A stretch of 64,000 nt of DNA, taken from positions 9,436,089 through 9,500,088 of the forward strand of contig NC_037273.1 in assembly GCF_000002425.4 (NCBI RefSeq), in the 5' to 3' direction. The notes under the pieces are model-generated. The model saw nothing but the letters and a program-made list of their open reading frames with translations. It was not told where the DNA came from and did not search any database. Every line of letters begins with the position of its first letter. Within the stretch, counting starts at the first letter, position 1. Origin of the DNA: Physcomitrium patens. Taxonomy: Eukaryota; Streptophyta; Bryopsida; Funariales; Funariaceae. This document shows, piece after piece, positions 4,712-62,541 of this stretch. The translations under genes were made by a program, and so were the position numbers.

Positions 4712-4758
<47 letters not shown>

Positions 4759-4764
4759 GTAATA
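4183..4764 (-). repeat. 3' LTR of the 4.2-9.5 kb element, with an AT microsatellite
   Basis: This LTR is enlarged by an (AT)n run at about 4716-4756 next to its terminal GTAATA. The adjacent decayed polypurine region matches the one beside the 47.9 kb LTR. Confidence 0.75.
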
Positions 4765-4819
4765 TTATCTTCCCTTTTAGGAATAGTTTCACGAGGAGCG
4801 GTCATCATCTTTCATGGAT

Positions 4820-7800
4820 CTTTGCAATTCTTTATCTTAGTTTTGATGGATGTTTTTGATAAAAAGCCTCAACCTTCTTTGTTGCATTTACAAGATTCTA
4901 TGCTGACTCCCATGTGCGTTTGCTAATATCATATCCATCTCAATGAAGAAGATATTCTAATCTATTTTAGTGATGTCTAGAATCTAAGACTTCTTCTACT
5001 TCGAATTCTTGATTATTATCCACTTCTATAGGAAAATGTGGCATTTGTCTTCTTTTCGAGATATTCACTATCTTATATGGCTCAAAAAGGGACATATAAA
5101 ATATAAGGTGGATCTTCATAGACTTCGATAGATATAATTAATAAGCAATAGGATTGATTTGTTCACAAATAGAGAAAAGTCTCAACTTACAATAGTCCAA
5201 CTTATTACAAGGACAAGTAGTCTTGATATTACGACAAAGTAACCATACCTTGTCACCTATATTGAATTGTGGTTGTTCCTTGCAATAGGCATCCATATTG
5301 GTCTTTTGTCATTCTTGAGCTTTCTTTAATTGTGTCTTCATAGTTGTATGTAGCTCTAACAAACAATTTGTTAAATCTTCCATAGTAGGATTATCAACTT
5401 TTGAAAAGTCAAAAGTATCAAATTATAGATGAAAACCATAATTGGCAAAGAAAGGTGTTTGTTGAGTAGAAGAATGCACGGAATTATTGGATACAAACTC
5501 TGCCAATGGCAAAAGAGTTGTCCAATCATCTTCATGTTAATTGATGATACATCTCAAATACCGTTCCAAAACTTAATTCACTCGTTCTGTTTGTTCATCA
5601 GTTTGAGGATGAAAAACTAAAGAGAGCTTTATATCCACATTTAAAATCTTGAATAGGGTTCTCCAAAATCTTGATACAAATTAAGTCTCCCTATCCGATA
5701 TAATATCCTTTGGCAATCCATGATAGAGATAGATATTATCAATAAAAAGCCTAGTTGTTTCTTCACCTGAAATAGATTTTATATATAGTACAAAATGTGC
5801 CATTTTGGTGAAGCAATCTACGATTACAAATATAGAGTCATATGAACTTGAAATTAGAAGATTTGTAATAAAATCCATAGAAACAAAAGATCATGGTTAT
5901 TTAAGAATTAGTAACGACTGAAGAAGTCGATAAGGTCAATGGTGAGGAGTTTTAGATCTTGAATAAGTATCGTATGATTGTACAAAAACTTTGACTATCT
6001 TCTACATTTGAGGCTACCAAAAATCTTTTGATATTAGTTCCAAAGTCTTATTGTATCCAAAATGTCCGATTGCTAGAAAATCATGACAAGTTTGAAGGAC
6101 ACGTAATCAAGCCTTGTCTTTTAAAATATATATGCGAACTTCAAAATATAGTAGATTATTTTTAAACTCAAACTTTGAAGTGCTATAAGACTTAGACTTG
6201 ATATCATGAACAAGAGGATTAGAAGACATATTTGATTGAATTTACTTCACAAAGATTGAATCAACAATCAATGTTGATTTTATTGCTTGAAGATAAAAAG
6301 ACTCATGCTTCAAAAAAATCATTATTTTTTGATCAAAAGATGCATTTTCTTCTTTTGGTGCAAGATAAGAATGCCTACAAAGGGCATCTGATAGACTTTG
6401 TTGTTTTTTAGATCAATAAGTAAACTTGAAATTGAATCTAGATAAAGACATGTTCCAACAGGCTTGATGATGATTCAAAATATATGATGACATAAAGTAC
6501 TTAAGGTTCTTATGATCCGTATATACAATGATTGGATTTGAAGTACCTTTTAGATAATGATTCCATTCTTAAAATGAATCAATGATTACAAGAAGTTCTT
6601 TGTTATGGATTTCATAATTAATCTTGGTTGCTAAAAATTTCTTGGAATAAAAAGCTACTAAGTAGAATTTGTTATTTGTTTCTATTTGTGACAATATAAT
6701 ATCCATAGCAAAGTTTGATGCATCTCTTTCCATAAAAAATGCCATAGAAAAGTCGACACAATATAAGATTGATGCAAAAGTAAATTCCTTCTTTAAAGTA
6801 TCAAATGATATTTGTACTTCTTTATTCTATTGAAATTTATCTTTACAAATCAAACATATAAGTGAAGCTGCAACTTGAAAAAAGTTGATGAAGATTCAAT
6901 AGTAATTAGCAAAGCCCAAAAAACATTGCACATCTCATATTGTTTTTAGAATCTTTCAATCTATGATAGTTTGGACCTTCTTAGGCTCCATCTTAAGGCC
7001 TTCGTTGAAAATGATGTATGCTAAAAAATCAACTTGAGTAGTATAGAATATACACTTTTTCAACTTGGCATATAATCTTGTATTTCTAAATTTCTGTAAT
7101 ATGCAACGAACATGAAGTTCATGTTTGTCTGTATTCTTAGAATAGATTAGAATGTCAATTAAATAGCAAATGACAAAATCATCTAGAAACTCTCAAAGAA
7201 CATCATTCATAAGATGTTGAAAGTGGCTAATAAATTTGTGAGTCCAAAAGGTATAACATTATATTCAAAATTCTATACCTCGTTTGAAAAGCAATCTTCC
7301 ATTCACCTCTTTTTTTGATACAAACTAAGTTGTATGCTCCTCATAGATCTATTTTGGTATAGATATTTGCTTGATTGAGTTAGTAAAGAAGTCCTAAAAT
7401 CAAAAGCAAAGGATACCTATTTTTGATGGTGATCTTATTAAGTCCTCAATAATCTACATATATCTTTAGAGATTTGTCTTTCTTCTTCACAAATAAGATA
7501 GCAACCCCGGTTGGAGTTTTAAAATGGCGTATGAAGTTCTTTGCTAATTTTTCATCAATATATCCCTTTAATGTAGCCAATTCATCCTACAATAAGTTAA
7601 AAATTGGTCCAAATGGTAGTTTAGCTCTTTCTTGCAAATCAATTGAACAATCATAAGATCATTGTTTTGGAAGAATATATGCATTCTTCTTTTTAAAAAT
7701 ATCTTAAAATTCTTGATATTGGCTAAAAATACTACTTGATATTTTTCCACCATTAAAAATGGGCATAGCATATATAACAAAAGATGATCCTTCTTTTGTA

Positions 7801-18206: not shown

Positions 18207-18629
18207 ATGGAAAACCAAGAACCAGCGGATTTAACTTAAGAGCCTTCATTTGCTGAATTACCGAATGAGACATTATGATTGTCACAACCTTCAAGACGAT
18301 ACAATTGAGATAAAGATCTTTAAGAATGACATATTCTTTCTCAAATAGATGGCGAGATACAACACGTTTGGTATCACGACCTTGGAAGGGACTCTCGATG
18401 TTTGATGATTTCACTAGAGGTAGGAACAACTCCTGATGGTGTTCGAAATATTTTATTTGAAGGAAGTTATGAAGGCTTGAGCAACGATCAAATAACTGGA
18501 TGGTCTTTTCGTCTAAGTATAAGATACTACTGATGGTTGAGAGGCCATATCAATTATCTTTGAAGAAAACAAAGATCAGAGTATGTGGCGAATATAATTC
18601 ATCGCATCATAGATTTCTTCAATATATGA
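18207..18629 (+). pseudogene. third ORF after pol (140 codons), interrupted by stops
   Basis: From the ATG at 18207 to the TGA at 18627-18629 the frame is unshifted over 423 bp, but it holds several stops that look like deaminated Arg, Gln or Trp codons. The C-terminal part aligns with the intact third ORF at 60981-61328: shared elements include an EV-x2-T-x-DG segment, a Trp, YY-x-WLRG, INYL, QRSEYVAN and a final II-x2-I-x-DFF. The N-terminal third is rich in polar residues and differs. I do not recognise the family. Its position between pol and the polypurine tract is the same in every related element here. Confidence 0.7.
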
Positions 18630-29279: not shown

Positions 29280-29701
29280 ATGGAAAACTAACAATTGGTG
29301 GATTCAATCAAAAGCTATCATTTTTTGACTTATAAAACAAGACATTACAATTATCACAACATTGAAGAAAATATAATAGGGATGAAGACCTATAAGAATG
29401 ACATGTTCTTCCTAGAATAGATAGTGAGATATAATAAGTTTGATATCAAAACTTGAAAAAAGACTCTTGATGTTTGGTGATTTTATTGGAGTTAGGCACA
29501 TTTCTTGATGGTATTCTGAATGTTTTATTTGAAAGAAGTTATGAAGGTTTTAATAATGATCTAATTATAAGGTGGTCTTTCTGCCTTAAAATGAGACATT
29601 ATTGATGGCTGACAGGATCTATTAACTACCTTCAAAGAGAACAAAGATCAGAGTACATGGCAAATATAATTTACCATCTTTTAGACTTCCTCAACATATG
29701 A
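29280..29701 (+). pseudogene. third ORF after pol, decayed
   Basis: It corresponds in position and sequence to 18207-18629, starting at an ATG and ending in a similar C-terminus (GSINYLQREQRSEYMANII, then a final LDFLNI). Start and end are in different frames, so at least one indel has occurred. Confidence 0.6.
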
Positions 29702-44285: not shown

Positions 44286-44287
44286 GT

Positions 44288-44299
44288 TTGTCGAGACTG
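44288..44299 (+). promoter_or_regulatory. candidate self-primer binding site
   Basis: TTGTCGAGACTG lies 2 nt after the LTR end and is the perfect 12-nt complement of the predicted RNA 5' end at 44147-44158. This geometry is that of Tf1-type self-priming. Confidence 0.8.
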
Positions 44300-44309
44300 C
44301 CTTTATCTT

Positions 44310-44683
44310 AATATCAGAGCTGAATCCTTCTTGTTTGAGAGCGGATTACTCCTCTTCTTGAAGGTATTCTAGCGCTTTAGGGATTGCGGATTACCTTCCT
44401 TCAAACTGATATTTTCTCAATCACAATATCAGAGCTTAGTTCTTTGAGGCAGAGAGTGGACTACCCCTTTCTTTGGAGATACTTGAGCATTCTAAGGGTT
44501 GCGGATTACCCTCTCTTGGACTGATATTAATTCCTTCTTTTTGTTTAGCATAGCTAGTAAAAAAGACTGTTAACATCGATTTCAGAGCTTTGCCTTCTTA
44601 ATAGAGTGTGGATTACTCCTTTTCTCGAAAGCATTGAGGCATTTTTAGAGGTTGCGGATTACCCTCCTCTAAAACTGAAATCG
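44310..44683 (+). repeat. three tandem leader hairpin units
   Basis: Stem arms are AATATCAG at 44310-44317 with CTGATATT at 44406-44413, AATATCAG at 44425-44432 with CTGATATT at 44521-44528, and CGATTTCAG at 44577-44585 with CTGAAATCG at 44675-44683. Each unit also contains two GCGGATTAC- or GTGGATTAC-type blocks. The third stem differs from the first two on both arms in a pair-preserving way. Confidence 0.8.
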
Positions 44684-44811
44684 TTTAGTATTTTTTTTTT
44701 TTTCTTTCTTTTCTCCGAGTAGGTTTTAGTGACAGATAGTACTACAATTTTCTCCAAGAGACTTAGCAATTTCTTCTTCTCTCAAAATTTTAATCCATCT
44801 ATTCTCTAAAT

Positions 44812-45861
44812 ATGGAAGTAGACCAGGTCATAGAAAGTGCATCTCGACAAGTAGACAATAGAGTGGCAACTCTTGCAGATCTTTAAGCTCTTATGAATAG
44901 TGTACGAAAGGAGATTGCATTTCTTCGCAATCTAAGTAAAGAACCTCAAATTGATCTAGTGACCGAAGAAGCTAGACGCGAAATTCATAGCCTACAACAA
45001 GAGATTATTCGACTGAGAGAAGCAAGACATGTATCATATACGACCCCTATGGATACTTCAAGGATTAGTACGAAAGAACCAAAAGCGAGTATGCCAGACA
45101 AGTTTGACGGAACAAGAGCCAACTTTCGAGGTTTTGTGCAACAAGTACGGCTTTACCTACGCCTATACCCTTCTCGTTATCCGAATGGATTTACCCAGGT
45201 TGCTTTCATAGGTACTCTTCTATCAGGAAATGCTCGCTCTTGGTTTGCTCTACTATTGGAGAAGGATTCTCCAATATTGTATGACCTAGAGGCTTTCATA
45301 GAGAGACTTATTGCTGCGTTTGGAGATAGCGATCGAGAAAGAGTGGCTGAAAGAAAGATACAAAATCTGCGACAAGGATCACGTTCTGCTGCAATCTATG
45401 CTGCAGAATTTCAACAGCTTACATGTGATCTTGATTGAAATGATAAGGCGTTCATGACACGATTTCGATATGGACTGAGAGATGATGTCAAGAAGTTATT
45501 GATCACCATGCGTAAGGCGGATACTTTAGAAGAACTTATATCTCAGGCAATTATTTGTGACAACCGCCTCTTTGAATTACGACAAGAAAGACGATCAGGC
45601 TGGAGAAATGATGGAGCATATGCTACATTTTCAAAAGGTCCAGAGAATCACTCCACAGATCCTGAACCCATGCAAATTGATGCGGTATGTTTCAAACCCC
45701 TCACAGTTGAGGAAAGGAAGCGACGGTTTGAAGAAAACTTGTGTTTATATTGCGGAGAAGCGGGCCATAAAGCTGTAGATTGTCGAAAGAAACAGAAGCC
45801 TCAAACAACAAGACTCAGGAGTACAAGCATGCAGGAAAACAAGGACGCCCAGCCACAATAG
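44812..45861 (+). pseudogene. gag of the outer element (two in-frame stops)
   Basis: The ATG at 44812 opens a gag of about 350 codons, in one frame to the TAG at 45859. Stops occur at 44884 (TAA, from Gln) and 45436 (TGA, probably from Trp). The N-terminal part is coiled-coil-like; the central part is the retrotransposon gag domain (PDKFDGTRANFRGF, then FIGTLLSGNARSWF). A CCHC zinc knuckle ([14 protein letters not shown]) lies near 45740-45780. Its last codons overlap pol in the -1 frame. Confidence 0.9.
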
Positions 45862-45876
45862 GGACCGTGCGGCTGG
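45834..45876 (+). promoter_or_regulatory. candidate -1 frameshift site: GGAAAAC, 8-nt spacer, stem-loop around the gag stop
   Basis: GGAAAAC is at 45834-45840, CCAGCC at 45849-45854 and GGCTGG at 45871-45876. The 16-nt loop contains the gag TAG (45859-45861). After a -1 slip at AAC, reading continues in the pol frame ([13 protein letters not shown]). Placement is identical in the elements at 51.6 kb and 57.4 kb. Confidence 0.7.
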
Positions 45877-47381
45877 ACATCTCAACATCCAAAATTAATC
45901 AAGGTCCCTTTCTCTCAGCTCAACCTTCAGATTGTTTTATGGTACCTTTACATCTGGGTATTCAAGAACTACAAGTCGATGCTTTATTAGACTCGGGTGC
46001 ATCCGCTTGCTTTATAGATGAAGAGTTTGCCAAGCTTCACAATATTTCTCTTGTAAAGAAATTTAAGCCTGTCCATGTAGAAGTCATAGACGGACGACCA
46101 TTGTCTTCGGGCAATGTTATCCATGAAACTAAACCATTGAAGGTAGGTCTTGAAAACCATGAGAGCAATATTGTGTTTAATGTTATGAAGACCCCTTCAT
46201 GTCCTATCATTTTGGGACTATCTTGGCTTGATTGATATAATCCATTGATAGATTGGAAGTTGCGGAAAGTGACATTTCCAACAAACTCCTTGAAGGTGGA
46301 ATCTGCCAAGACAATGTCTAGAAACAAATCCTTGTTTATAGGTGCAAGGGCTTTCATGAAGGAAGATAAGCAAAATACACATCTTGTCATCTTCGCAACT
46401 CTGACTCGAAAAGATGCAACTTCGACTTTGGTTATTCCAAAGCAGTATGAAGAATTCAAAGATGTCTTTGAAAAGAAGAATGCTAATATGCTGCCAGAGC
46501 ATCGACCCTATGACTGTGCCATTGAATTGCAAGAAGGAGCACAACCACTTTTTGGACCAATCTACAATTTATTGCAGACAGAGTTGACTGAGTTGCGGAA
46601 GTACATTGATGAGAATCTAGCCAAGAACTTCATCCGTCATTCGAAGTCGCCAACTGGGGCACCAATCTTATTTGTGAAGAAGAAGGATGGCTCACTACGG
46701 ATGTGTGTGGACTATCGAGGTCTCAACAAGGTGACAAAAAAGAATCGCTATCCACTGCCTTTGATCTCTGGTCTTCTAGAACAACTTGGACGTGCAAGGA
46801 TCTTTACAAAGATTGACCTGAGGGGAGCTTACAACCTAGTGCGAATTAAGGAAGGAGATGAATGGAAGACAGCGTTCCGAACAAGGTATGGCCATTTTGA
46901 ATACAATGTCATGCCATTTGGTCTTACTAATGCTCCAGCGGTCTTTCAACACATGATGAATGACATCTTTCGAGAGTATCTAGACGATTTTGTTGCCATC
47001 TATCTAGATGATGTTTTGATATTTTCTAAGAACGAGGAAGAACATGAGAAGCACGTTCGTCTGGTACTCAAAAAACTACAGGAGCGAGGACTCTATGCCA
47101 AATTGGAGAAGTGCTTATTTCACCAAACTGAGATGGAGTTTTTGGGATTCATCGCGACTACGGAAGGCTTGAAGATGGATCCAAAGAAGGTGGAAGCAAT
47201 CATGACTTGGGAAGTTCCGAAGACAGTTAGGAACGTACAATGTTTTCTTGGATTTGCTAACTACTCTCGGATCTTCATCAAGAATTATTCTCAAGTTGCT
47301 GCCCCCCTCACTCGGTTAACATGTAAGGATAAGCTCGAATGGGGACCTATCGCAGAAAAAGCATTTCAAGATTTGAAGATG

Positions 47382-47911
47382 TGTCAAGGACAAGAACTCG
47401 ATGAAAGCTAAAGAGTAAGTGAGACTTTTCTCAAAAAGAAATAGGACAAAATAGAAATATGTATATTAAGAAAGAAACTGGAATGGCTATTGCCAAAATA
47501 CAAGAAAACTAGAGACCCTTGAAACTAGACTAGAAGCAAGAAAGGAGTTGACAAGAGTGAAGAGGGCTTCACTCTTGCCTCTATATATACTATCTAACTA
47601 GAAGCCACGTGGCGATGTTCTATAAGACCTCCAATATATGTTGACTTTCTAGGCCACATGCCTTTGCTTGCAAGGCAAGTTTTCTATGGATGGACCACGT
47701 AATTAGCTTGTTCTTTAAGCTTCCAACATGCGTGGCACATGGCTAACTTGTTGACCAAGTTTCTAACCTAAAAGTCAACTATAGACTCCTATAAAGTCAA
47801 AGCAGCATCTATGAAGCTTCTAAGAAGCTTCTCTAGAAGATATTACACAATTAACCTACTTTTATATACTTTTATCTATTCATATAGGTAATTATATGTA
47901 TGTCCGTGACA
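47382..47911 (-). repeat. 3' LTR of the minus-strand element
   Basis: On the plus strand it reads TGTCAAGGACAAG to TATGTCCGTGACA. The LTR ends are 11-bp inverted repeats of each other with few mismatches, longer than the TG/CA minimum. Confidence 0.95.
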
Positions 47912-47930
47912 TTACCCCCCCTTCTAGGGA
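47912..47930 (-). other. polypurine tract
   Basis: On the coding strand TCCCTAGAAGGGGGGGTAA directly precedes the LTR. It is the expected plus-strand primer. Confidence 0.85.
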
Positions 47931-47952
47931 CGAGTTCCACGAGGAGCGGTGA

Positions 47953-48122
47953 TTATATATTGAGAAAATCTAATATGCGGCGAATTGTATTTGCTACATA
48001 CTCTGATCTTTGTTCTCTTCGAAGATAGTTGATGGGTCCTCTTAGCCATCGATAGTGTCCCATTCCAGGGCAAGAAGACCACCCTGTTATTTGATCACTG
48101 TTGAGGCCTTCATAACTTCCTC
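47953..48122 (-). pseudogene. third ORF, C-terminal remnant
   Basis: Open sequence encodes GSYEGL, then the conserved block GHYRWLRGPINYLRREQ and a C-terminus ending RILDFLNI before a TAA. Relative to the full-length copy at 18207-18629, about 330 bp is deleted. The deletion removes the N-terminal half and joins this part to the pol 3' flank. Confidence 0.75.
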
Positions 48123-48150
48123 AATCTTGTCTCTTTTATAAGAGAGGTTT

Positions 48151-51100
48151 TCATCTTGGTTTTGATGGATGTCGTTGATGAAAAACTTTGACTTTAGTTG
48201 ATGCATTTGCTAGATTCCTGGATGGCTCCCATGTGCGCTCACTAATATCATATCCGCACCAATGAACAAGATATTCCAGCTTATTTCGGCGTCGCCTTGA
48301 GTCTAATATCTCTTCCACCTCAAATTCTTCATTATTATCTACTTCTATAGGAGGCGGTGGCATTTATCTTCTTCCTTGTATATCCACTGTCTTATATGGT
48401 TCAAGAAGAGACACGTGTAATACAGGATGGATCTTCATTGACTCCGGTAGATGTAACCGATATGCAACTGGGTTGATCTGTTCAGAAACAGAAAAAGGGC
48501 CAAGCCTACGATAGTCCAATTTGTCACAAGGTCGAGTGGTCTTGATATTGCGACGAAGTAGCCATACCTTATCACCCACGTTGAGTTGTGGTTGCTCTTT
48601 ACGATATACATCTGTATTTATCTTTTGTCGTTCTTGAGCTTTCTTCAACTGCGCCTTCATTATTGCATGTAACTCTGACAACCGATTTGCCATATCTTCT
48701 GCTGCAGGATTATCAACTTTTGAAAAATCAAAAGTATCAAGTCGTGGATGATAGCCATAATTGGCAAAGAAAGGTGTTTGTTGCGTGGAGGAATGTACCG
48801 TATTATTATAAGCAAACTCTGCCAATGGCAAAAGGTTTGTCCAATCATCTTGTTGGTAGTTGATGGTACACCTTAAATACTGTTCCAAGACTTGGTTTAC
48901 GCGCTCTGTTTGTCCATCAGTTTGAGGATGGAAAGCTGAAGATAGCTTTATGTCCACTTTTAAAATCTTAAAAAGAGTCCTCCAAAATCTCGACACAAAT
49001 TGAGTTCCCCTATCCGATATGATATCTTTAGGCAATCCATGATAGCGATAGATATTATCAATGAAAAGCTTAGCTGTTTCTTCACCTGTGATAGATTTTG
49101 TACATGGCATAAAATGTGCCATCTTGGTGAAACGATCTACTATCACAAATATAGAATCATAAGATCTTGAGTTTGGAAGATCTGTGATGAAATCCATAGA
49201 AACAGAAGACCATGGTTGTTCTGGTATAGGTAATGGCTGAAGAAGTCCGTAAGGTCGATGTCGAGGAATTTTTGATCTTGAACAAATATCACATGATTGT
49301 ACAAAGTCTTTGACTGACTTCCACATTTGTGGCCACCAAAAATCTCTTGATATGAGTTCCAAAGTCTTATTATATCCAAAGTGTCCTACTGCTGGAAAGT
49401 CATGACGTGCTTGAAGAACACGCAAACGTGCTTTTCCTTCTGGAACATATAGGCGTCCTTCAAAATATAATAGATTATTCTTGAACTCGAACTTAGAAGA
49501 ATCATGAGACTTGGAAGAATTATTCTCGATATCATGAACAAGAGGGTCTAAGGACATACTGGACTGGATTTGCTTGAGAAAAGTTGAATCAACAATCAAT
49601 GTTGATTTCACTGCTCGGAGATGAAATTGCTCCGGTTTCAAGAGGACCGTTCTTTGTTGCTCAAAAGCTGCATCTCCTTCTTTTGGTGCAAAATAAGAAC
49701 GTCTAGACAGGGCATCGGACAAACCTTGTTGTTTTCCTGGCCGATAAGTGATAATGAAGTCGAATCTTGACAAAGACATACTCCAACGAGCTTGACGACG
49801 ATTCAACACGCGTGCTGACATGAAATACTCGAGGTTCTTGTGATCTGTATACACAATGACTGGACTAGAAGCACCTTCTAGATAATGACGCCATTCTTGA
49901 AAAGAATCCACGATTGCAAGAAGTTCTTTATCGTGGATCTCATAATTGATCTCGGCTGCTGAGAATTTTCTTGAATGAAAAGCTATCGGATGAAGTTTGT
50001 CATCTGTTCCCATTTGTGATAAAACTGCACCCAAGGCAAAATCCGATGCGTCTGTTTCCATAAAAAATGCCTTGGAAAAGTCAACACGATATAAGACTGG
50101 TGCAGAGACAAATGATGTCTTCAAGGCTTCAAATGCTGCTTCCGCTTTTTGATTCCATTGGAATTTATCTTTACTAGTCAAGCGTGTAAGTGGAGCTGCA
50201 ACTCGTGAAAAGTCTTTGATGAAGATCCGATAGTAATTGGCAAATCCCAAGAAACATTGGACATCTCTTACAGTCTTTGGAATCTTCCAATCCATGATTG
50301 TTTGGACTTTCTTAGAATCCATCATGAGACCATCATTTGAAATGATGTATCCTAAAAAGTCAACTTGAGTAGTGTGAAATACACACTTTTCCATCTTGGC
50401 GTACAATCCTGCATCTCTGAGTTTTTGTAATACTTGACGAACATGTATTTCATGTTCTTCAACATTCTTAGAATAAATCAGGATATCGTCTAGGTAGCAG
50501 ACGACAAAATTGTCTAAGAATTCACAAAATACATCATTCATGAGATGTTGAAAAGCAGCTGGTGCATTCGTGAGTCCAAAAGGCATGACATTATATTCAA
50601 AATGCCCGTACCTGGTTCGAAACGCAGTCTTCCATTCATCTCCTTCTTTGATCCGTACTAGATTATATGCTCCTCTTAGATCTATTTTTGTATAGATCTT
50701 AGCTTGATTTAACTGGTCAAGGAGTCCTAATATCAAAGGTAATGGATACCTGTTCTTGATTGTGATCTTGTTGAGTCCTCGATAGTCAACACACATTCGT
50801 AAAGATCCATCTTTTTTCTTTACGAATAGAATTGGAGCTCCAGCTGGAGATTTTGAATGGCGTATGAAATTCTTCGCTAAATTTTCGTCAATATATGTCT
50901 TGAGTTCAGCCAACTCATCTTGCGATAAACTGTAAATTGGTCCAAATAGTGGCTGAGTTCCTTCCTTGAGATCGATTGAACAATTGTATGGGCGATGCTC
51001 AGGAAGAATATCTGCATTCTTTTTCTCAAAAACGTCTTGATAATCCTGATATTGACTTGGAATGCCACTTGAAGTCTTTACGCTTTCAGAAATAGGTGCA

Positions 51101-51665
51101 GCATAAATAGCAAAAGTTGATCCTTCTTTTGCTGCGTGTATAAATGCTTTTGCACCTATAGGTGCGAGTTTTACTATACTAGAGTCATGGTTTTTTACTT
51201 GGTTAATAGAACTGTTACTAATGCTCTGAGGAAAATCAAGTTTATGAGAAATCCAATCTATTCGAGGATTATACTTTTCTAACCATGATAAGCCTAAAAT
51301 TACTGGATTAGAGGGAGATCTAATTATATTAAAAATTACGCAACTACTATGACCATTTATTACTACATCTACAGGAAGTGTTTCGTGAGTTACATCTCCA
51401 GAAGACAACGGACGACCATCTATGACTTCTACGTGTACAGGTTTAGTTTTTTGTATTAATGATATTCTATGACATCTAGCAAATTCTTCATCTAAAAAAC
51501 AAGATGAGGCTCCTGAATCTACCAAGGCAGAGGCTTTGTAATTATTAGGTCCTAAACGCACATCTATTGTAAAACAAGGAGATGGTTCTGAGGAGAGGAT
51601 AGGACCTTTATTAGAAGTTGTACAAGATTCCAGCCGCACGGTCCCTATTGTAGCTGGACGTACTC
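48151..51665 (-). CDS. pol polyprotein with one stop just before the chromodomain
   Basis: From the -1 slip point (51665) the frame is open for about 1,099 codons to a TAA at 48366-48364, then in the same frame through the chromodomain to 48151. Domains in order: protease (LVDSGASSCF), RT with YLDD (VVCYLDDILIYSKN), RNase H (ETDASDFALGAVLSQ), integrase zinc-binding HHCC (H..H..CDICSRSK) and an Asp-Asp-Glu core in the MDFITDL, DRGTQF and HPQTDGQTERVNQ segments, then IEVDNNEEFEVEEIL and YLVHWCGYDISERTWEP as chromodomain. The TAA replaces a Gln codon in the relative at 17.9 kb. Every catalytic motif I checked is intact. It is the best preserved pol in the window. Confidence 0.93.
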
Positions 51666-51672
51666 GTTTTCC
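51630..51672 (-). promoter_or_regulatory. candidate -1 frameshift site
   Basis: On the minus strand GGAAAAC (51672-51666), an 8-nt spacer, CCAGCT (51657-51652), a 16-nt loop with the gag TAG, and GGCTGG (51635-51630). The sixth pair is a T-G wobble. Confidence 0.7.
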
Positions 51673-52652
51673 GACATACTGTCTTCTTTGACAGCCGTAC
51701 TCCTCATTTTGTAGTTACGTCGCTTCTTTGGACAATGTTGAGCAGTGTGCTTAGGTTCTCCACAATATAAGCACAATCCTTCTTGTCGACGACGAGACTT
51801 TTCTTGCTCAGTAAGAGGTTTGAAATGTACCGCATCAATTTGCATATCCTCTACTTCTGAAGGTATGTGTTGAGGAGACGTCGGTGTTGCCATTGAATTG
51901 TAGTAACGTTGAGGCCCACTTGTGCGACTCTCGGATCGAAATTCAAAAAGTCGATTATCGCACTTCACAGCAAAGTCAATTGCTTGACTCAATGTTTGAG
52001 GATCAGGTAAATTAAGCATCAATTTCTTTACCTCATATTGTAATCCGTAGAGAAATTGACTCACAAGTGCGGCATCATCCCACTTGATATCAGTTGCAAG
52101 TTGTCGAAATTACGAAGCATATAATGTTACTGATCGATTGCCTTGTCGCAAAATACGGATCTTGTTGGTTGCAACACGAATTGCATCATGTTCTCCAAAC
52201 ATGGATCGAAACTCCGCCGAAAAAGCCTCCAGATTATCCAATATTGGATCTCGTCGTTCAAGAAAAGATGAAAACCATGACAATGCTGAACCTGAAAGAA
52301 GTGTACCAATGAATCTAACTTGTGACCCTGGAGTTGGATAGCTCTGGGGTTGAAGTTCAATCACTAGTTGGACCTGATTGATGAATCCTCGAAACTTGGA
52401 TCTGGTACCATCAAACTTCTCGGGCAAGGCAACTCTCGGTTCTCTAACACTCGAAGGGTGTTCCATTCTGGGAGAAGGGACATGGTTTGGTGCAGATGTC
52501 GAAGCAACCCCAATCATCTCTATATCTTCACTTCCTACCATTCTTGTTGCTCCTTGTGGTGGTAAATTGAGTTGATGCATCGCAAGCATTAACTCCCTCA
52601 ATTGTTCTTGCATCTGTGCCATTGCACTCTTCATTTCAACAAGCTCTGCCAT
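51645..52652 (-). pseudogene. gag with one in-frame stop
   Basis: The ATG at 52652 opens a gag of about 335 codons with a single stop at 52112-52110 (TAA, where the relatives have GAA or GAT). The gag core (LPEKFDGTRSKFRGFINQV) and zinc knuckle CLYCGEPKHTAQHC (CX2CX4HX4C) are intact. The frame ends at the TAG at 51647-51645, inside the frameshift stem-loop. Confidence 0.9.
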
Positions 52653-52736
52653 AGTAGCACTTAGAAAAGAGAAGATGTCTAATAACGCTCAAAACAAATA
52701 GAAGAGAGGAATTGATAACAAAGAAAATACTAAGAA

Positions 52737-52862
52737 CAATATCAGTTTAAAAGAGGGTAATCCGCAACTTCTAATGCGCTTATGTCTTATCAAGAAAAAG
52801 GGGTAATCCACTCTTAATCAAGAAAAGACAAAGCTCTGATATTGTAAGTGTACTCTTGTCAA
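52737..52862 (-). promoter_or_regulatory. leader hairpin and self-primer site
   Basis: On the coding strand TTGACAAGAGT (52862-52852) lies 2 nt after the LTR and complements ACTCTTGTCAA at 53041-53031. The latter starts 31 nt after the TATA start at 53072. A single hairpin follows with perfect 9-bp arms CAATATCAG (52844-52836) and CTGATATTG (52745-52737). Confidence 0.8.
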
Positions 52863-52864
52863 TC

Positions 52865-53394
52865 TGTCAAGGACAAGAACTCGATGAAAGCTAAAGAGTA
52901 AGTGAGACTTTTCTCAAAAAGAAATAGGACAAAATAGAAATATGTATATTAAGAAAGAAACTGGAATGGCTATTGCCAAAATACAAGAAAACTAGAGACC
53001 CTTGAAACTAGACTAGAAGCAAGAAAGGAGTTGACAAGAGTGAAGAGGGCTTCACTCTTGCCTCTATATATACTATCTAACTAGAAGCCACGTGGCGATG
53101 TTCTATAAGACCTCCAATATATGTTGACTTTCTAGGCCACATGCCTTTGCTTGCAAGGCAAGTTTTCTATGGATGGACCACGTAGTTAGCTTGTTCTTTA
53201 AGCTTCCAACATGCGTGGCACATGGCTAACTTGTTGACCAAGTTTCTAACCTAAAAGTCAACTATAGACTCCTATAAAGTCAAAGCAGCGTCTATGAAGC
53301 TTCTAAGAAGCTTCTCTAGAAGATATTACACAATTAACCTACTTTTACATACTTTTATCTATTCATATAGGTAATTATATGTATGTCCGTGACA
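52865..53394 (-). repeat. 5' LTR of the minus-strand element
   Basis: Identical to 47382-47911 except for three transitions that I find. Confidence 0.95.
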
Positions 53395-55661
53395 AGATGG
53401 TATTTACTACAGCTCCAATCTTGGTACATCCGGACTTTACAAAGGCCTTTTATTTGGAGACAGATGCTTCGGATTTTGCTTTGGGAGCTGTACTTTCACA
53501 GATGGACGTAGATGAGAAGCTCCATCCAGTTGCGTTCTATTCTCGAAAATTCTCTGCTGTTGAGATCAACCATGAGATCCACGATAAAGAACTCCTTGCT
53601 ATAGTAGATTCTTTCCAAGAGTTTTGCCACTTTCTCGAAGGAACTGCACATCCAGTGACCGTATATACGGATCACAAGAATTTGGAGTATTTTATGTCGG
53701 CTCGGGTTTTGAATCGGCGTCAAGCTCGGTGGAGTATGTTGCTATCCAAGTTCGACTTTGTTATTACTTATCAGCCTGAGAAGCAACAAGGGTTGTCCGA
53801 TACATTATCAAGGAGATCATATCTCATGCCAAAGGCTGAAGATGCAGCATTTGATCAACAGTGCACGACATTGTTGAAGCCAGAGAAATTTCGGCTCAAC
53901 GCAGCTATTGTACCAATTGATGCTGACTTCCTCGACCAGGTACGGGCCGCAACGATTGAAGATTCTCTAGCCCTTGATATCAAGCAACATGCTAGTGATG
54001 ATAAATTCAAGATGGAAGGAGATCTAGTATATTTCGAAGAGCGGTTGTATATCCCAAAAGGGCCAACACGACTCCGAGTTCTTCAATCTCGTCATGACTT
54101 TCCAACTGCGGGACATTTTGGATTCAATAAGACCTTGGAACTTATTTCCCGCTATTTCTGGTGGCCTCAAATGTGGAAGGATGTGAAAGATTTTATTGTA
54201 TCTTGTGACATTTGTTCAAGATCCAAAAACCCTCGATATCGGCCTTATGGACTTCTACAGCCATTGCCTATTCCGCGCCGACCATGGTCTTCGGTTTCCA
54301 TGGACTTTATTACGGATCTACCACCATCGAATTCATTTGACAGCATTTTTGTTGTCGTAGATCGGCTTACAAAGATGGCGCATTTTGTCCCTTGCAAGAA
54401 GACATTGTCAAGCGAAGACACAGCAAGACTCTTTCTTGATAATGTGTATCGATATCATGGTCTACCAGATGATATCGTATCGAATCGAGGAACCCTGTTT
54501 GTGTCAAAGTTTTGGAAATCTCTTTTTGAAATATTGAAGGTGGATATCAAGCTTTCTTCGGCATTTCATCCTCAAACGGACGGCCAAACAAAACGGATGA
54601 ATCAAGTTTTAGAGCAATATTTACGTTGCACCATCAACTATCAACAAGATGATTGGGTCGCATATCTATCGCTAGCCGAGTTCGCATATAACAACACCCT
54701 TCATGCGTCAACTCAACAAACGCCATTCTTTTCCAATTATGGATACCATCCGAAGCTTGACTTATGGAGTTCATCAACGATTAACAATCCGGTAGCTGAA
54801 GGATTGGTGAAGGAGCTTTCGCAGCTTCAAACTACATTGAAGCTTCAATTGCAAACTGCCCAAGAATCTTACAAGGCGTCCGCACACAAATTTCGGAATC
54901 AGGCACCTAAATTCACGATTGGAGACAAAGTTTGGCTGCTTCGACGAAATATTAAGACCAAGCGGCCATGTGACAAATTGGACTATCGGAGATTGGGACC
55001 ATTTGTTATCCAGAAGCAGATCAATCCTGTAGCGTATCGTCTGGAGTTACCAGCTACTATGAAGGTACATCCTGTCTTTCATGTTTCTTTATTGGAGCCT
55101 TATCGAGAATCGTCTTTTCCTGGAAGAGTACAATGTCCACCACCTAGCATAGAAATAGAGAACCACGAAGAACACGAGGTGGAAAAGGTCCTGGATTCAC
55201 GGCAAAGATGGGGTAAATTAGAATACTTTGTGCATTGGAGTGGTTGTGATATTAATGAACGAACCTGGGAGCCAGTCGAAAATCTCGCGAATGCACCACA
55301 AAAAGTACAGGAGTTTCATCGACGATATCCTGAGAAATCCAAGTCGGTTCGACAATAGCTTCTTACTGAAGCTTGCTCATCCAAAAAACAGAAAAGAGGA
55401 GAGAGCACCACCAAAACCCATAGTTGATGTAGTCATTCTCTCCAAGATAGCGTTGAACTTTGTTAGTAGCCCAAGTTTGTTCTTATTGTTTTAGCCTTTG
55501 AATATGGATAGCCAAGATACTACACTTTTCATGTCATCTCAAGCAACTAGCTCACGAAGACCATCGCGAGATGAAGAACCGCTTGCACCACGACGACGTC
55601 GAAGGATTCCGAGCAACAGATCGCTGGTGATTGTATTTGAGGTCGAGCCTGCCTACAATGG

Positions 55662-56073
55662 TGTCATGGACATACATTGGAAGATTCTTCGAATATTCAT
55701 CTAGAATATTCTCTAAAGATTCTCTAAAGATTCCTTTAGAAGGTTCTAAAAGATTCTTAGAATATTCCCTAAAGATTCTCTTAGAAGGTTCTAGAATATT
55801 CTGATAGATTCTAGGAAGTTGCTCGAGAAGTTTCTTAATTAGTAGAAGTTGTTGGAGAAGCGACCTAGTTAGCGGAAGTAGCTCGAGAAGCTTCCTATTC
55901 AGTAGTATATAAAGGAGTCGAGGCTGAAGGGTTCTTCAGTCTCGACAACACATCTCTTGGAGTTCTAGCTCACCTTTCTGGTGTTGTTCTTGTACTCATC
56001 TGTTTAATCTAGTTCTGCCACTTCTTCTTGAACTTCTTGTTAGATTTCAAGTCTATATTTTGTGTCCGTGACA
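55662..56073 (+). repeat. 5' LTR with heat-shock-type array
   Basis: TATATAAA starts at 55906 and CAGTCTCGACAA at 55937-55948, again 31 nt apart. A perfect GAAnnTTCnnGAAnnTTC block lies at 55784-55801. Confidence 0.93.
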
Positions 56074-56075
56074 GT

Positions 56076-56315
56076 TTGTCGAGACTGCATTTTCACTGGT
56101 ATCAGAGCTAGTTCCTTCTTGTTAGAGAGTGGATTACCCCTCTTCTTGAAGGTGTGCTAGTGTTTTAGAGGTTGCGGATTACCCTCCTCTAAACTGATAT
56201 CTCTTCTTTCTCAATATTGGAGCCTTATTCTTCTTGGAGAGAGTGGATTACCCCTCATCTTGGAGTCTTAAGGCGTTTTAGAGGTTGCGGAGTACTCTCC
56301 TCTGAACCAATATTG
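56076..56315 (+). promoter_or_regulatory. self-primer site, tRNA-Met-like site and two leader hairpins
   Basis: TTGTCGAGACTG (56076-56087) lies 2 nt after the LTR. TGGTATCAGAGC (56097-56108) matches the initiator-Met tRNA complement and forms the 5' arm of hairpin 1 (partner CTGATATC, 56194-56201). Hairpin 2 has arms CAATATTGG (56212-56220) and CCAATATTG (56307-56315). Confidence 0.8.
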
Positions 56316-56376
56316 TCTTCTTGTCAAAACTCTTTTTTCTTCTTTCTGAAGGTTAGTCGAAGGTTAAGACATTAAA

Positions 56377-57378
56377 ATGGCTGAAAGTTTGGAATCCAAA
56401 CTAGACGCCATCATAAATGCTCTTGCCTCGTTGTCACATAGGACAACAGAGATCGAAGGAGTCATGGTAGGACTCCATAACAATGGAGCATCTGGGATAG
56501 CGCCATCTAAAGCATATCAGCCTCAAACTTCTGCGCCAGAAGAAGCAGTTCTACGTCCATTTCAACAAGATCGAGTAGTCCTACAACGAAAGGAGCCTCG
56601 AGTTAGTCTTCCGGATAAGTTCGATGGAACTCGTTCCAAGTTTTGAGGTTTTGTCAACCAAATCAGGTTGATAACAATTTTACAGCCCGAATGTTATCCG
56701 ACGGAGGAAGCGCGTGTTGGGCTTGTTGGAACCTTGCTTACAGCACAAGCTCTGTCTTGATTTACTCCCTTGTTTGAGAAGCGATCGCCAATCCTGAGCA
56801 ACTTTGAAACGTTCTTGGAGGCGTTTGCAGAAGCATTTGGCGAGCATGATAAAGTTCGATGGGCTACAACAAAGATCCGATCGCTACGACAAGGAACACG
56901 CTCTGCATCAGTCTATGCCTCGGATTTCAGACAATTGACAAGTGACATTAATTGGGGTGAAGAGGCGTTGGTGAGTCAGTTTTATTGGGGCTTGAAGGAT
57001 GATGTGAAGGACTTGCTGTTATCTCTTCCTGATCCTTAAACGCTCAACGAAGCTATTAGCTTAGTTGTAAAGTGTGACAACCGCCTATTCCAACGTCGCC
57101 AAGATCAACGTCCAAGACACCAAATGACTAGTTACGACGTGACTATGTCTGCAAATAGCTTAAACTCACATTCGGAGGCAATAGACATGCAAATCGACAC
57201 GGCGCGTGCCCGATCTCTTACTCCAACAGAGAAGAAACGGCGTATGAAGGAAGGGTTATGTTTGTACTGTGGAGAAGAAGGTCACAAGGTTGGAAATTGC
57301 CCAAAGAAGCAAAATTGGCACCCTGTCAAGACTAGAAGTGCGATGATTCCGGAAAACGACGACGCCCAGCCACAGTAG
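56377..57378 (+). pseudogene. gag with three stops
   Basis: One frame runs from the ATG at 56377 to the TAG at 57376. Internal stops lie at about 56644 (TGA, from Arg CGA), 56758 (TGA, from Trp) and 57037 (TAA, from Gln), all single transitions. The zinc knuckle CLYCGEEGHKVGNC is intact. Confidence 0.9.
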
Positions 57379-57393
57379 GAACCGTGCGGCTGG
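57351..57393 (+). promoter_or_regulatory. candidate -1 frameshift site
   Basis: GGAAAAC 57351-57357, 8-nt spacer, CCAGCC 57366-57371, 16-nt loop with the gag stop, GGCTGG 57388-57393. Same geometry as at 45834. Confidence 0.7.
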
Positions 57394-60300
57394 ACAATCT
57401 AATATCACGACAACAATCAGGTTCCTCCTTCTCTGTCCAACCTGCCCGTTGTTTTACAATTCCTTTGTTTTTAGGCCCTCAAAAACAAAAAACTTTAGCT
57501 TTATTGGATTCGGGGGCATCTACTTGTTTTTTAGATGAAGAGTTTGCTAAACGCCACAAGATCCGTTTAGTACAGAAGTCCAAACCTGTTCACGTAGAGG
57601 TGATAGATGGACGACCCTTATTGTCAGGCAACGTTACCCACGAATCAGAACCTATAGAAGTGGTGTTTAAGGACCATAGTAGTCACGTTATTTTTAATAT
57701 TATTAGAACCCCATCAAGCCCTATTATCCTTGGTCTTTCTTGGTTAGAAGATCATAATCCGTCCATTGATTGGAGGCTACGAAGGATAACATTTCCTAAA
57801 AAAAATAATAATAAACCTGTTGATAGAACCTACATGAAGAAATCCATGTTTATTGGAGCGAGAGCATTCATAAGATCGTCCAAGGAAGGCGCACCATTTG
57901 TCATTTATGCAGCTCCAACTAGCGGCGAGAATATCTCAACATCGAATATACCAAAGCAATATAGGGATTTTGAAGACGTGTTTCAGAAGAAGAACGCCGA
58001 TATACTGCCGGAACATCGACCATATGATTGCGCCATAGACTTAGAGGAAGGAGCGCAACCACTTTTTGGTCCAATATACAACCTATCGCAGACGGAGTTG
58101 GCAGAATTGCGGAAGTACATCGATGAGAATCTAGCCAAGAATTTTATTCGACATTCAAAGTCGCCAGCTGGAGCACCAATCCTATTCGTGAAGAATAGGG
58201 ATGGCTCACTACGGATGTGCGTGGACTACCGAGGACTCAACAAGGTGACCAAGAAAAATTGCTATCCCTTACCTTTGATCTCCGGCCTCTTAGATCAACT
58301 TGGATGTGCAAGAATTTTTACAAAGATTGATTTAAGAGGAGCCTACAACCTTGTGCGAATCAAAGAAGGAGATGAATGGAAGACAGCCTTTCGTACAAGG
58401 TATGGCCATTTTGAGTACAATGTCATGCCTTTTGGTCTTACCAATGCTCCAGCGGTCTTTCAGCATATGATGAACGACATCTTTCGGGAGTACCTCGATG
58501 ACTTTGTTGTCATCTATCTGGATGATATTTTGATATTTTCCAAGAATGAAGAAGAACATGAGAAGCACGTTTGTTTGGTTCTTGAAAAACTACGCGAACG
58601 AGGACTCTACGCCAAGTTGGAGAAGTGTCAATTTCACCAGAATGAGATGGAATTTTTGGGCTTCATTGCGACTACAGAGGGCTTGAAGATGGATCCAAAA
58701 AAGGTAGAAGCAATTATATCTTGGGAAGTTCCGAAGACGGTTAGAGATGTTCAGTGTTTTCTTGGATTTGCTAACTTCTATCGGATCTTCATCAAGAATT
58801 ATTCTCAAGTTGCTGCACCACTCACGCGTCTAACAAGCAAAGACAAGCTCGAATGGGGATCACAAGCAGCAAAAGCATTTCAAGATCTCAAGACGGCATT
58901 CACTACGGCTCTAATCTTGGTACACCCTGACTTTGCAAAGGCTTTCTATTTAGAGACCGATGCTTCAGATTTTGCTTTGGGAGCTGTGCTTTCACAGATG
59001 GGCATAGATAAGAAGCTTCACCCAGTTGCGTTCTATTCACGAAAGTTCTCTGCTGCTGAGATCAACTACGAGATCCACGACAAAGAGCTGCTTGCTATAG
59101 TAGATGCCTTCCAAGAGTGGCGTCACTTCCTCGAAGGAGCTGCACATCCAGTGACTGTTTATACGGACCACAAGAATTTGGAGTACTTCATGACAGCTCG
59201 AATTTTGAATCGTCGTCAAGCTCGATAGAATATGTCTTTATCACGATTTGACTTTATTATCACCTACCGCCCTGGAAAACAGGAAGGATTATCTGACGCA
59301 TTATCGAGGAGATCGTATCTTGCGCCAAAGGCTGGAGAAGCAGCGTTTGATCAACAATGTACAACATTGTTGAAACCAGAAAAATTCAGGATTTTTGCTA
59401 TTGTTGCAACTATCGATGACGGCTTCCTCAACGAGGTACGTACTGCGACCATTGAGGATTCTATAGCTCTTGACATCAAACAACGTGTCGATAATAACAA
59501 GTTTAAGGTGGAGGGAGATCTTCTGTATTTTGAGGAGCGGTTGTATATCCCAAAAGGACCAACTTGACTTCGAGTACTTCAATCTCGCCACGACTTTCCA
59601 GCTGCGGGACATTTTGGATTCAACAAGACTTTGGAGCTCATTTCACGAGATTTTTGGTGGCCCCAAATGTGGAAGGATGTGAAGGAATTTTTCCTTTCTT
59701 GTGATGTTTGTTCAAGATCCAAGATCCCTCGACATCGTCCGTATGGACTTCTCCAGCCATTGCCTATTCCGCACCGACCATGGTCTTCAGTTTCTATGGA
59801 CTTCATTACGGACCTACCGCCATCGAATTCATTTGACAGCATCTTTGTTGTGGTGGATCGATTTACAAAGATGGCGCATTTCGTGCCTTGCAAGAAAACA
59901 TCGTCAAGTGAAGATACAGCAAGACTCTTTCTTGATAACATATATCGTTATCATGGCCTACCAGATGATATCGTGTCGGATCGAGGTACTCAGTTTGTAT
60001 CGAAGTTTTGGAGGTCTCTCTTTGAGATATTGAAGGTGGATATTAAGCTCTCTTCGGCTTTTCATCCTCAAACTGACGGTCAAACGGAGCTGGTGAATCA
60101 AGTTTTGGAGCAATATTTACGATGCAGCATCAACTATCAACAAGATGATTGGACTGCATATCTACCGCTTGCTGAGTTCGCATACAACAACACTCTTCAT
60201 GCGTCAACTCAACAAACACCATTCTTCTCCAACTACGGATACCACCCCAAGCTCGATTTATTGAGTTCTTCAGCAAATAACAACCCAGCAGCTGAAGGAT

Positions 60301-60854
60301 TTGTGAAGCAACTATCGGAGCTTCAAGCGACGTTGAAGCTTCAATTACAATCTGCCCAAGAGAGTTACAAGGCATCTGCAGATAAATATCGAAATGAGGC
60401 GCCTACTTTTAAAGTTGGAAGTAAAGTATGGCTTCTTCGACGGAATATCAAGACCAAGCGGCCATGTGACAAATTGGACTATCGGAGATGAGGGCCATTT
60501 GTTATCGGGAAGCAGATCAATCCGGTGGCATATCGTCTAGAGTTACCAGCTACTATGAAGGTACATCCAGTCTTTCATGTGTCTTTGTTGGAACCTTATC
60601 GAGAGTCAGCTTTTCCCCAAAGAGTACAAAGTCTGCCACCAAGTATCGAAATTGAAAACCATGAAGAATACGAGGTGGAAAAGGTACTAGATTCACGGCA
60701 TAATAGGAGAAAATTGGAGTATTTAGTGCATTGGAGTGGATACCACATCAATGAACGAACGTAAGAGCGTGCCGAAAATCTTGCCAATGCACCAAAAAAG
60801 GTACAAGAATTTCATCAACGATATCCTCATAAACCTAAGCCGATTCAACGATAG
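57357..60854 (+). pseudogene. pol with four stops, no frameshift
   Basis: A single frame covers protease (LLDSGASTCF), RT (YLDDILIFSKN), RNase H, integrase (HHCC region near 59590-59720; core MDFITDL, DRGTQF, HPQTDGQTELVNQ) and chromodomain ([20 protein letters not shown]). Stops lie at 59226 (TAG, from Trp), 59565 (TGA, from Arg), 60489 (TGA) and 60762 (TAA, from Trp). All RT and integrase catalytic residues I checked are present. Confidence 0.92.
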
Positions 60855-60980
60855 CTTCTTGCTGAAGCTTGCTCATCAAGTAGCATAAAAAGGGGGGAAG
60901 GCACCTCCAAAACCCATAGTTCGATAGTGTAGAACTTTGTTAGTAACTATAGTTTGCTCTCATCATTTTAGCCTTTGGAC

Positions 60981-61328
60981 ATGGATAGTCAAGATACTAC
61001 ACTTGTTATGTCATCTCAAGCGACTAGCTCACGAAGACGACCGCGAGATGAAGAACCGCCTGCACCACGACGACGTCGGAGGATACCGAGCAACAGATCG
61101 CTAGTAATTGTATTTGAGGTCGAGCCTACCTACGACGGTCAGCCAGAAGGTGTGTTTGGAGGACAGTTTCACAATGAAGACACAGAAGTCCACGCTTGGT
61201 CAGAGATTGAAGGTGTTGGTCACTACCGTTGGCTCCAAGGGCCGATGAATCATTTGCCTCGCGAACAACAATTGGAATTCATAGCGGATGTGATGCGACA
61301 GATTTTCATTTTCTTGCGTTGGTATTGA
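60981..61328 (+). CDS. third ORF after pol, intact (115 aa), unknown function
   Basis: It starts at ATG 60981, 126 nt after pol ends, and ends at TGA 61326, about 50 nt before the 3' LTR. Residues 1-40 are Ser-, Arg- and Pro-rich with a five-Arg run that could act as a nuclear-localisation or RNA-binding patch. Residues 41-115 form a compact, aromatic-rich block: LVIVFEVEP, an acidic stretch, then HAWSEIEGVGHYRWLQGP and a helical-looking C-terminus ending FLRWY. There is no signal peptide or membrane segment, so it is not envelope-like. Homologous reading frames occupy the same place in four other elements here. I do not recognise the family. Confidence 0.8.
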   Translation: MDSQDTTLVMSSQATSSRRRPRDEEPPAPRRRRRIPSNRSLVIVFEVEPTYDGQPEGVFGGQFHNEDTEVHAWSEIEGVGHYRWLQGPMNHLPREQQLEFIADVMRQIFIFLRWY

Positions 61329-61378
61329 CTGATAACAACATTGCTTCTCGGAGACCTCAAAGTTAGAAGAGGAGGTGA

Positions 61379-61822
61379 TGTCATGGACATACATTGGAAG
61401 ATTCTTCGAATATTCTTCTAGAATATTCTCTAAAGATTCTCTAAAGATTCTCTAAAGATTCATTTAGAAGATTTTAGAAGATTCTTAGAATATTCTCTAA
61501 AGATTCTCTTAGAAGATTCTAGAATATTCTTAGAAGGTTCTAGAATATTCTCATAGATTCTAGGAAGTTGCTCAAAAAGTTTCCTAATTAGTAGAAGTTG
61601 TTGGAGAAACGTCCTAGTTAGCAGAAGTAGCTCGAGAAGCTTCCTATTCAGTAGTATATAAAGGAGTCGAGGCTGAAGGGTTCTTCAGTCTCGACAACAC
61701 ATCTCTTGGAGTTCTAGCTCATCTTTCTGGTGTTGTTCTTGTACTCATCTGTTTAATCTAGTTCTGCCACTTCTTCTTGAACTTCTTGTTAGATTTCAAG
61801 TCTGTATTTTGTGTCCGTGACA
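61379..61822 (+). repeat. 3' LTR of the nested element
   Basis: It is 32 bp longer than its partner. One extra block of about 20 bp duplicates a heat-shock unit, giving two perfect four-unit blocks at 61512-61529 and 61533-61550. Confidence 0.93.
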
Positions 61823-62067
61823 AATGGTCAGCCAGAAGGAGTGTTTGCAGGACAATTTCACAATGAAGACATGGAGGTTCATGCTTGGTCAGAAGTTGAA
61901 GGCGTGGGCCACTACCGTTGGCTTCAAGGACCATTGAATCACTTGCCTCGTGAACAACAATTGGAGTTCATAGCAGAGGTTATGCGACAGATCTTCATTT
62001 TCTTGCGTTGGTATTGACTGACGATAACATTGCTTCTCGGAGACCTCGAAGCTAAAGGAGGAGGTGA

Positions 62068-62541
62068 TGTTAGGGACATAGTCCTTAGACCTTTCTAGAG
62101 ACAAGTTTCTAAAACCTTCTAGAAAGAAGTCTCTAGAAACTTCCAGAAGATTCCTTGAATATACTCTTAGAATATTCTTCAAAGATTCCTTAAAGATTCT
62201 TTGAAGATTCCCTAAAGATTCTTTTAGAAGGCTCTAGAAGATTCTTAGAATATTCTAGTAGATTCTAAGAAGTTACTTGAGAAGCTTCCTAGCTCTTGGA
62301 TAGTTGCTCGAGAAGCTTCATAGTTCTTGGGAAGCTTCTTGATGCGCTTCCTTAGAACCATAGGCCAGTAGTATATATAGGAGTCGAGGCTAAAGGGTTC
62401 TTCAGTCTCGACAACACATCTCTTGAAGCTCTAGCTCAATTCTCTTGGCGTTGCTCTTGTACTCATCTGATAATCTAGTTCTTCTCATTTCTTCTTGAAC
62501 TTCTTGTTTAGATTTCTTGTTTGTATTTTTGGTCCGTGACA
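62068..62541 (+). repeat. 3' LTR of the outer element
   Basis: Preceded by the purine-rich GCTAAAGGAGGAGGTGA. Eight substitutions from 43812-44285. Confidence 0.95.

Follow-up and report, generated by a model that had tools for sequence, protein, structure and literature searches.

A short conserved third gene between pol and the 3' long terminal repeat of moss chromoviruses

Is a short open reading frame (ORF) downstream of pol in a moss long terminal repeat (LTR) retrotransposon a gene in its own right, or a chance stretch that happens to be open? The question was raised by 64,000 nucleotides of Physcomitrium patens DNA (assembly GCF_000002425.4, contig NC_037273.1, positions 9,436,089 to 9,500,088), referred to here as the window (34% GC, no N), in which an initial annotation had placed an ORF between pol and the polypurine tract of an LTR element, the nested 55.7 kb element E6. 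This ORF, designated ORF3, was borne out as an intact sense ORF of 115 codons; it ends 50 bases 5' of the 3' LTR, and its product is 98% identical to a P. patens UniRef protein (P0002). It is near certain that ORF3 is a selected gene, a real third gene of moss chromoviruses. The same annotation had listed copies in five elements, and homologous stretches were found in all of them, but only the E6 copy is an intact ORF; one is split, two are stop-ridden relics and one is truncated. The copies sort into two types, A (E6 and the outer element E5) and B (the other three), and where at least three LTR types had been claimed, self-comparison separated the ORF3-bearing copies into two LTR groups. The five copies lie as follows.

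60981..61328, + strand: type A ORF3 of E6, intact, 115 codons, between pol and the 3' LTR
55504..55661, + strand: type A ORF3 of E5, 5' part, interrupted by the E6 insertion
61828..62017, + strand: type A ORF3 of E5, 3' part, interrupted by the E6 insertion
18207..18629, + strand: decayed type B ORF3 of the 12.8 kb element, seven internal stops, homologous stretch 18393-18617
29280..29701, + strand: decayed type B ORF3 of the 24.6 kb element, a frameshift and many stops, homologous stretch 29474-29692
47959..48121, - strand: C-terminal remnant of type B ORF3 of the 47.4 kb element E4, homologous stretch 47962-48093

The two E5 pieces encode protein that is 89% (55504-55661) and 91% (61828-62017) identical to that of E6. 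Over the 115 codons, 26.5 synonymous and 11.5 non-synonymous differences were counted, corresponding to a synonymous rate (dS) of 0.462, a non-synonymous rate (dN) of 0.044 and a dN/dS of 0.096, with 6, 4 and 28 differences at codon positions 1, 2 and 3, respectively. None of 5000 neutral simulations produced so few non-synonymous changes. A count made earlier by hand for the last 62 codons (18 with synonymous change only and 5 with amino-acid change) agrees with the codon list of this comparison. The ratio was 0.061 in the core (codons 39-115) and 0.25 in the N-terminus (codons 1-38), and pol of the same two elements, used as a yardstick, gave 0.116 over 655 codons.

A sample chosen without regard to ORF3 was obtained by fetching 30 genomic loci through the non-coding DNA downstream of the E5 ORF3; one of these (L041) was the window itself and was dropped, leaving 29 copies (L042-L070) of the E5 subfamily, all of type A. 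ORF3 was present in every one of these blindly chosen loci, covering at least 346 of 348 bases, and was intact in 12 (start codon, no stop, no indel); the remaining 17 were not intact, and 16 of the 29 copies carried a stop. The differences from E6 that were fixed across all 29 copies were overwhelmingly synonymous (21 against 3 non-synonymous, where 7.4 of the 24 would be synonymous without selection), whereas the singletons, taken mostly as post-insertion changes, comprised 12 synonymous and 49 non-synonymous changes and 13 stops (15.6 of 74 expected to be synonymous). Of the variants found in two or more copies, 13 were synonymous and 22 non-synonymous, and 2 were stops. The contrast between fixed and singleton changes gave a Fisher p of 3.5e-10, an indicative value, the copies of a subfamily being related. 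Since the fixed changes are overwhelmingly synonymous and the singletons behave as neutral, ORF3 was selected during element replication and was free to decay after insertion. Constraint during replication is as strong as in pol and the post-insertion changes are neutral, both for type A. The purifying selection proposed from the first inspection is thereby upheld, and a dN/dS near 1 was not seen. By alignment column, the variants of the 29 copies included 41 C-to-T and 40 G-to-A changes among 111, an excess expected for decaying methylated copies.

Proteins related to ORF3 are numerous. Of 125 candidates from a protein search, 102 were homologues at E<=1e-3, with P. patens and Ceratodon purpureus as named hosts, and this count together with the neutral simulations argues that ORF3 is not a product of chance. 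A second search, for which part of a P. patens protein served as query, recovered 23 type B proteins of 140 residues, query included. In a profile search, 1,375 of 2,498 candidates reached E<=1e-3, and the best 120 of these contained a further type, C, of about 140 residues, whose host is guessed to be a peat moss; type A is mostly 115-117 residues long. In a tree of 62 chosen proteins, types A (39), B (13) and C (10) formed separate clades, each with 100/99 support. The three types have in common a C-terminal domain marked by WS-x(3)-G-x-GHYRWL-x-GP and a short N-terminal motif resembling SQP...RPRDEE, which is weak in C; 22 positions carry an identical residue in at least 80% of the sequences of every type (A, n=35; B, n=13; C, n=16). 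The gene is therefore conserved over far-diverged element families, as had been suggested. When one type A and one type B protein set were compared, identity was 37.5% for ORF3, 54% for gag and 68% for pol. In the genome searched (470,438,890 bases in 101 contigs), first-look candidates numbered 14,676 for type A and 20,396 for type B, with 150 of each type scored. P0113, a P. patens protein, was matched there at 100% identity. P. patens gene models in UniRef that match ORF3 carry the name 'Predicted protein'; two of them (P0095 and P0101) fuse ORF3 sequence of types B and A, perhaps through recombination or because the gene models wrongly span nested copies. One type B protein (P0118), encoded on a 549-base contig, is filed under Kitasatospora herbaricolor (GCM10010495_82620) and is probably moss DNA inside a bacterial assembly.

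Twelve genomic elements were taken around ORF3 matches (six type A and six type B loci, with one LTR pair partial). In all 12 a chromodomain preceded ORF3 and the 3' LTR of an LTR pair followed it, the end of ORF3 being 38-50 bases from the match to this LTR; some of these elements had gag and pol open, and in others they were broken. ORF3 was in sense orientation to gag-pol both there and in the window. The distance from the pol stop to the ORF3 ATG was 126 bases in the frame of pol in all six type A loci, and 94 bases in a shifted frame in all six type B loci; in E5 it is 145 bases. Because the frame of ORF3 relative to pol differs between the families, neither fusion nor read-through is a likely general mode of expression. 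A TTAG following a pyrimidine-rich stretch precedes the ATG of the genomic loci, 9 bases away in type A and immediately adjacent in type B, and fits a putative 3' splice acceptor; the decayed type B copies of the window differ at this site. No splice donor common to the elements was found by eye, and re-initiation is an equally open alternative to splicing for the expression of ORF3.

The elements that carry ORF3 were assigned by Pfam matches to the Ty3/Gypsy chromoviruses, with reverse transcriptase, RNase H, integrase, an SH3 domain (Tf2-1-like) and a chromodomain. The pol of E5 matched the chromodomain family PF00385 at E 1.2e-13 and SH3_Tf2-1 at E 4.2e-21, which places E5 among the chromoviruses. 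From the moss host and the domain order, the window elements very probably belong to the Tcn1 clade. The parts of E5 and E6 that surround ORF3, together with the site where ORF3 would be expected in the 4.2 kb element E1, are listed below.

55662..61822, + strand: nested LTR element E6, carrier of the intact ORF3, pol with in-frame stops
55662-56073 (5') and 61379-61822 (3'), + strand: LTRs of E6, 96.4% identical, 32 gap columns excluded
60648..60833, + strand: chromodomain end of E6 pol, containing a stop, upstream of ORF3
60852-60854, + strand: E6 pol stop, 126 bases 5' of the ORF3 ATG
60966..60971, + strand: TTTTAG, 3' splice-acceptor-like, after a pyrimidine-rich stretch, 9 bases 5' of the E6 ORF3 ATG
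53379..55358, + strand: 3' half of E5 pol with RNase H, integrase, SH3 (Tf2-1-like) and chromodomain (Pfam)
4722..4841, - strand: expected ORF3 site in E1, B-type flanks kept, ORF3 gone

E6 is flanked on both sides by AATGG (55657-55661 and 61823-61827). The LTRs of E5 (43860-62541) are 98.4% identical and those of the nested, hence younger, E6 are 96.4% identical, values obtained from alignments with hand-set LTR bounds and gaps excluded; this reversed order may reflect noise or gene conversion. E4 (47379-53394) is young, its LTRs being 99.25% identical, and its pol is open over 1091 codons, ending before the chromodomain. E1 (4183-9512) is B-type, with a long TA repeat near its 3' LTR edge. 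Between the elements, at 37272-41899, ORFs of 102-226 codons are clustered on the two strands; three of them were tested and gave no Pfam match at E<=0.1. In an Rfam scan of the window, none of the families reached threshold.

The protein itself gave no significant match in Pfam, PHROGs, NCBIfam or PDB sequences. The view that ORF3 is not a fragment of pol was supported by the lack of gag or pol similarity in a tblastn search of the window and by hhalign probabilities of 0.1-0.3% against five gag or pol segments. Comparison with a profile of the window's six chromodomains gave a probability of 0.2-0.3%, although the profiles are shallow and distant homology is still possible, so the chromatin-binding role once guessed receives no help from sequence. 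A membrane segment usually requires a hydropathy of about 1.6; no such segment was found by hydropathy in five ORF3 proteins, whose 19-residue maxima were 0.54-1.13 (no dedicated predictor was used), in keeping with the earlier statement that ORF3 is not envelope-like. The basic N-terminus described at the outset holds for P0001 (net charge +5 over the first 45 residues) and its close type A relatives, which have two arginine clusters, but not for the tested type B (P0109, -4) and type C (P0130, -4) proteins or for P0048 and P0055 (-1 and -6), two divergent relatives within type A whose N-termini are longer. It is not common to the ORF3 types, and the RNA-binding guess is weakened accordingly. 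In the structure prediction that had been called for, the AlphaFold model suggests some beta strands together with a helix at the C-terminus, but at a predicted local distance difference test score (pLDDT) of about 51 it is too poor for fold searches to be informative.

The first description of moss chromoviruses is reportedly that of Novikova and others (2008, Plant Journal). No description of the moss ORF3 was found in the literature searched, with that paper, the 2018 chromosome-scale genome paper, Repbase entries and supplements lying outside the search, so that absence from print is not established. A sense extra ORF is a known kind of gene, and the ORF3 family itself appears to be undescribed. 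In the sections covered of the reports cited here, the additional ORFs that some plant LTR retrotransposons carry in sense orientation between pol and the 3' LTR (aORF-3S) are described as envelope-like (PMC7264820). ORF3 resembles these in its position, its orientation and its occurrence in many copies per family (29 of 29 in the E5 subfamily), and differs in being short, in lacking a hydropathy membrane segment and in keeping one domain across divergent families. The words Physcomitr-, moss, chromovirus and Tcn1 do not occur in the covered main text of that report. The REXdb survey described eORF-3'F of SIRE and other lineages but considered extra ORFs of at least 250 codons only, found those within one lineage mutually unlike and raised the question of whether they are functional (PMC6317226); eORF-3'F and ORF3 are both extra forward ORFs in the 3' part of the element, with ORF3 falling below the length limit. 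The antisense ORFs of Retand with a TRP28 domain are, like ORF3, conserved proteins between pol and the 3' LTR with no assigned function, but belong to non-chromovirus elements of flowering plants, whereas ORF3 is a sense gene of mosses with no significant Pfam match (PMC11963269). Tcn1-clade chromoviruses are reported from mosses and Selaginella, and chromodomain Gypsy elements from P. patens; SM-Tcn1 has two ORFs, as opposed to the third gene of the moss elements, and the ORF3 of SM1-Galahad (Selaginella) encodes a chromodomain, to which the moss ORF3 shows no resemblance (PMC2864245, PMC3350952, PMC6317226). A figure legend covering fungal elements and SM-Tcn1 mentions an 'add. ORF' of unknown function without stating the element that owns it (PMC2864245). 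The covered parts of PMC7466625, PMC9033089 and PMC3729371 likewise give no description of the moss ORF3.

As to what ORF3 does, several readings were weighed. That it arose by chance or is merely decaying, as a functionless piece of pol or host sequence from a single capture, could be argued from the three of five window copies that are decayed or truncated and from the non-intact majority of the blind sample, but it is refuted for type A by the synonymous fixed changes, sits badly with the simulations and with the lack of gag or pol similarity, and can practically be dismissed. An envelope-like protein, a frequent label for sense extra ORFs of plant LTR elements, would account for the position and orientation, which are as for env, and for the acceptor-like TTAG before the ATG; at only 115-140 residues in the window's types, and with hydropathy maxima under the membrane-segment level, this identity is very improbable. 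A cofactor that binds nucleic acid or chromatin, coating the element RNA or guiding site choice by the chromodomain integrase, would suit the arginine clusters of P0001 and its close relatives and the presence of a chromodomain in the elements; the N-termini of the B, C and divergent A proteins that are not basic, and the lack of similarity to the window's chromodomains or gag, make it an unlikely choice. Slightly better placed, and still doubtful, is an antagonist of host silencing that would block a small-RNA or DNA-methylation step so that the element is transcribed. A small stand-alone gene next to gag-pol, its lower conservation in the one A-B pair compared and the large numbers of first-look candidates, which would fit escape from silencing, speak for such an antagonist, but the type A core (dN/dS 0.06) bears no sign of an arms race and Pfam gives no significant match.

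Ranked above the silencing antagonist, and then the nucleic-acid or chromatin binder, is a non-envelope accessory protein that serves as a replication cofactor together with the element's own machinery (probability about 0.4). Binding to that machinery is the likeliest arrangement because, within type A, the core of the domain is under strong constraint and does not evolve fast, which also favours a steady partner. ORF3 would be made as a separate small protein, as the frame differing between families suggests, with a predicted flexible N-terminus bearing the SQP...RPRDEE-like motif and then a domain of 80-90 residues, which low-confidence models build from beta strands and a C-terminal helix. 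It would bind Gag, the integrase complex or the element RNA, and may be required at an assembly or nuclear step of replication. Several points weigh against this cofactor. Variants common to at least two of the 29 copies show no visible constraint within the subfamily. ORF3 is gone from E1, and in E4 its 5' part has been lost by deletion although the LTRs are nearly identical; it may be that ORF3 acts in trans, that it is dispensable for the movement of some elements, or that the losses came after insertion. Finally, the lower A-B identity of ORF3 than of gag or pol means that a host-facing role fits at least as well as a role inside the particle.

Gag and Pol are regarded as sufficient for the transposition of LTR elements (PMC7264820), and the Gypsy elements RLG1 and RLG2 are transcribed in P. 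patens (PMC7466625). The contrast obtained from the blind sample makes the question of whether a third gene matters answerable in a haploid moss in which some Gypsy elements are transcribed. Since ORF3 would escape a survey that sets its limit at 250 codons, similar genes may be hidden elsewhere. It is possible, and put forward tentatively, that ORF3 founds a protein family so far known from moss chromoviruses only and common to element lineages of widely diverged sequence, and that it represents an obligatory third gene for their replication. Its fold would then be new, as would its role, be it in replication, in targeting or in evading silencing. If the proposal is true, a non-envelope sense gene would be conserved across an LTR-element lineage that is very numerous in the genome of a model plant.
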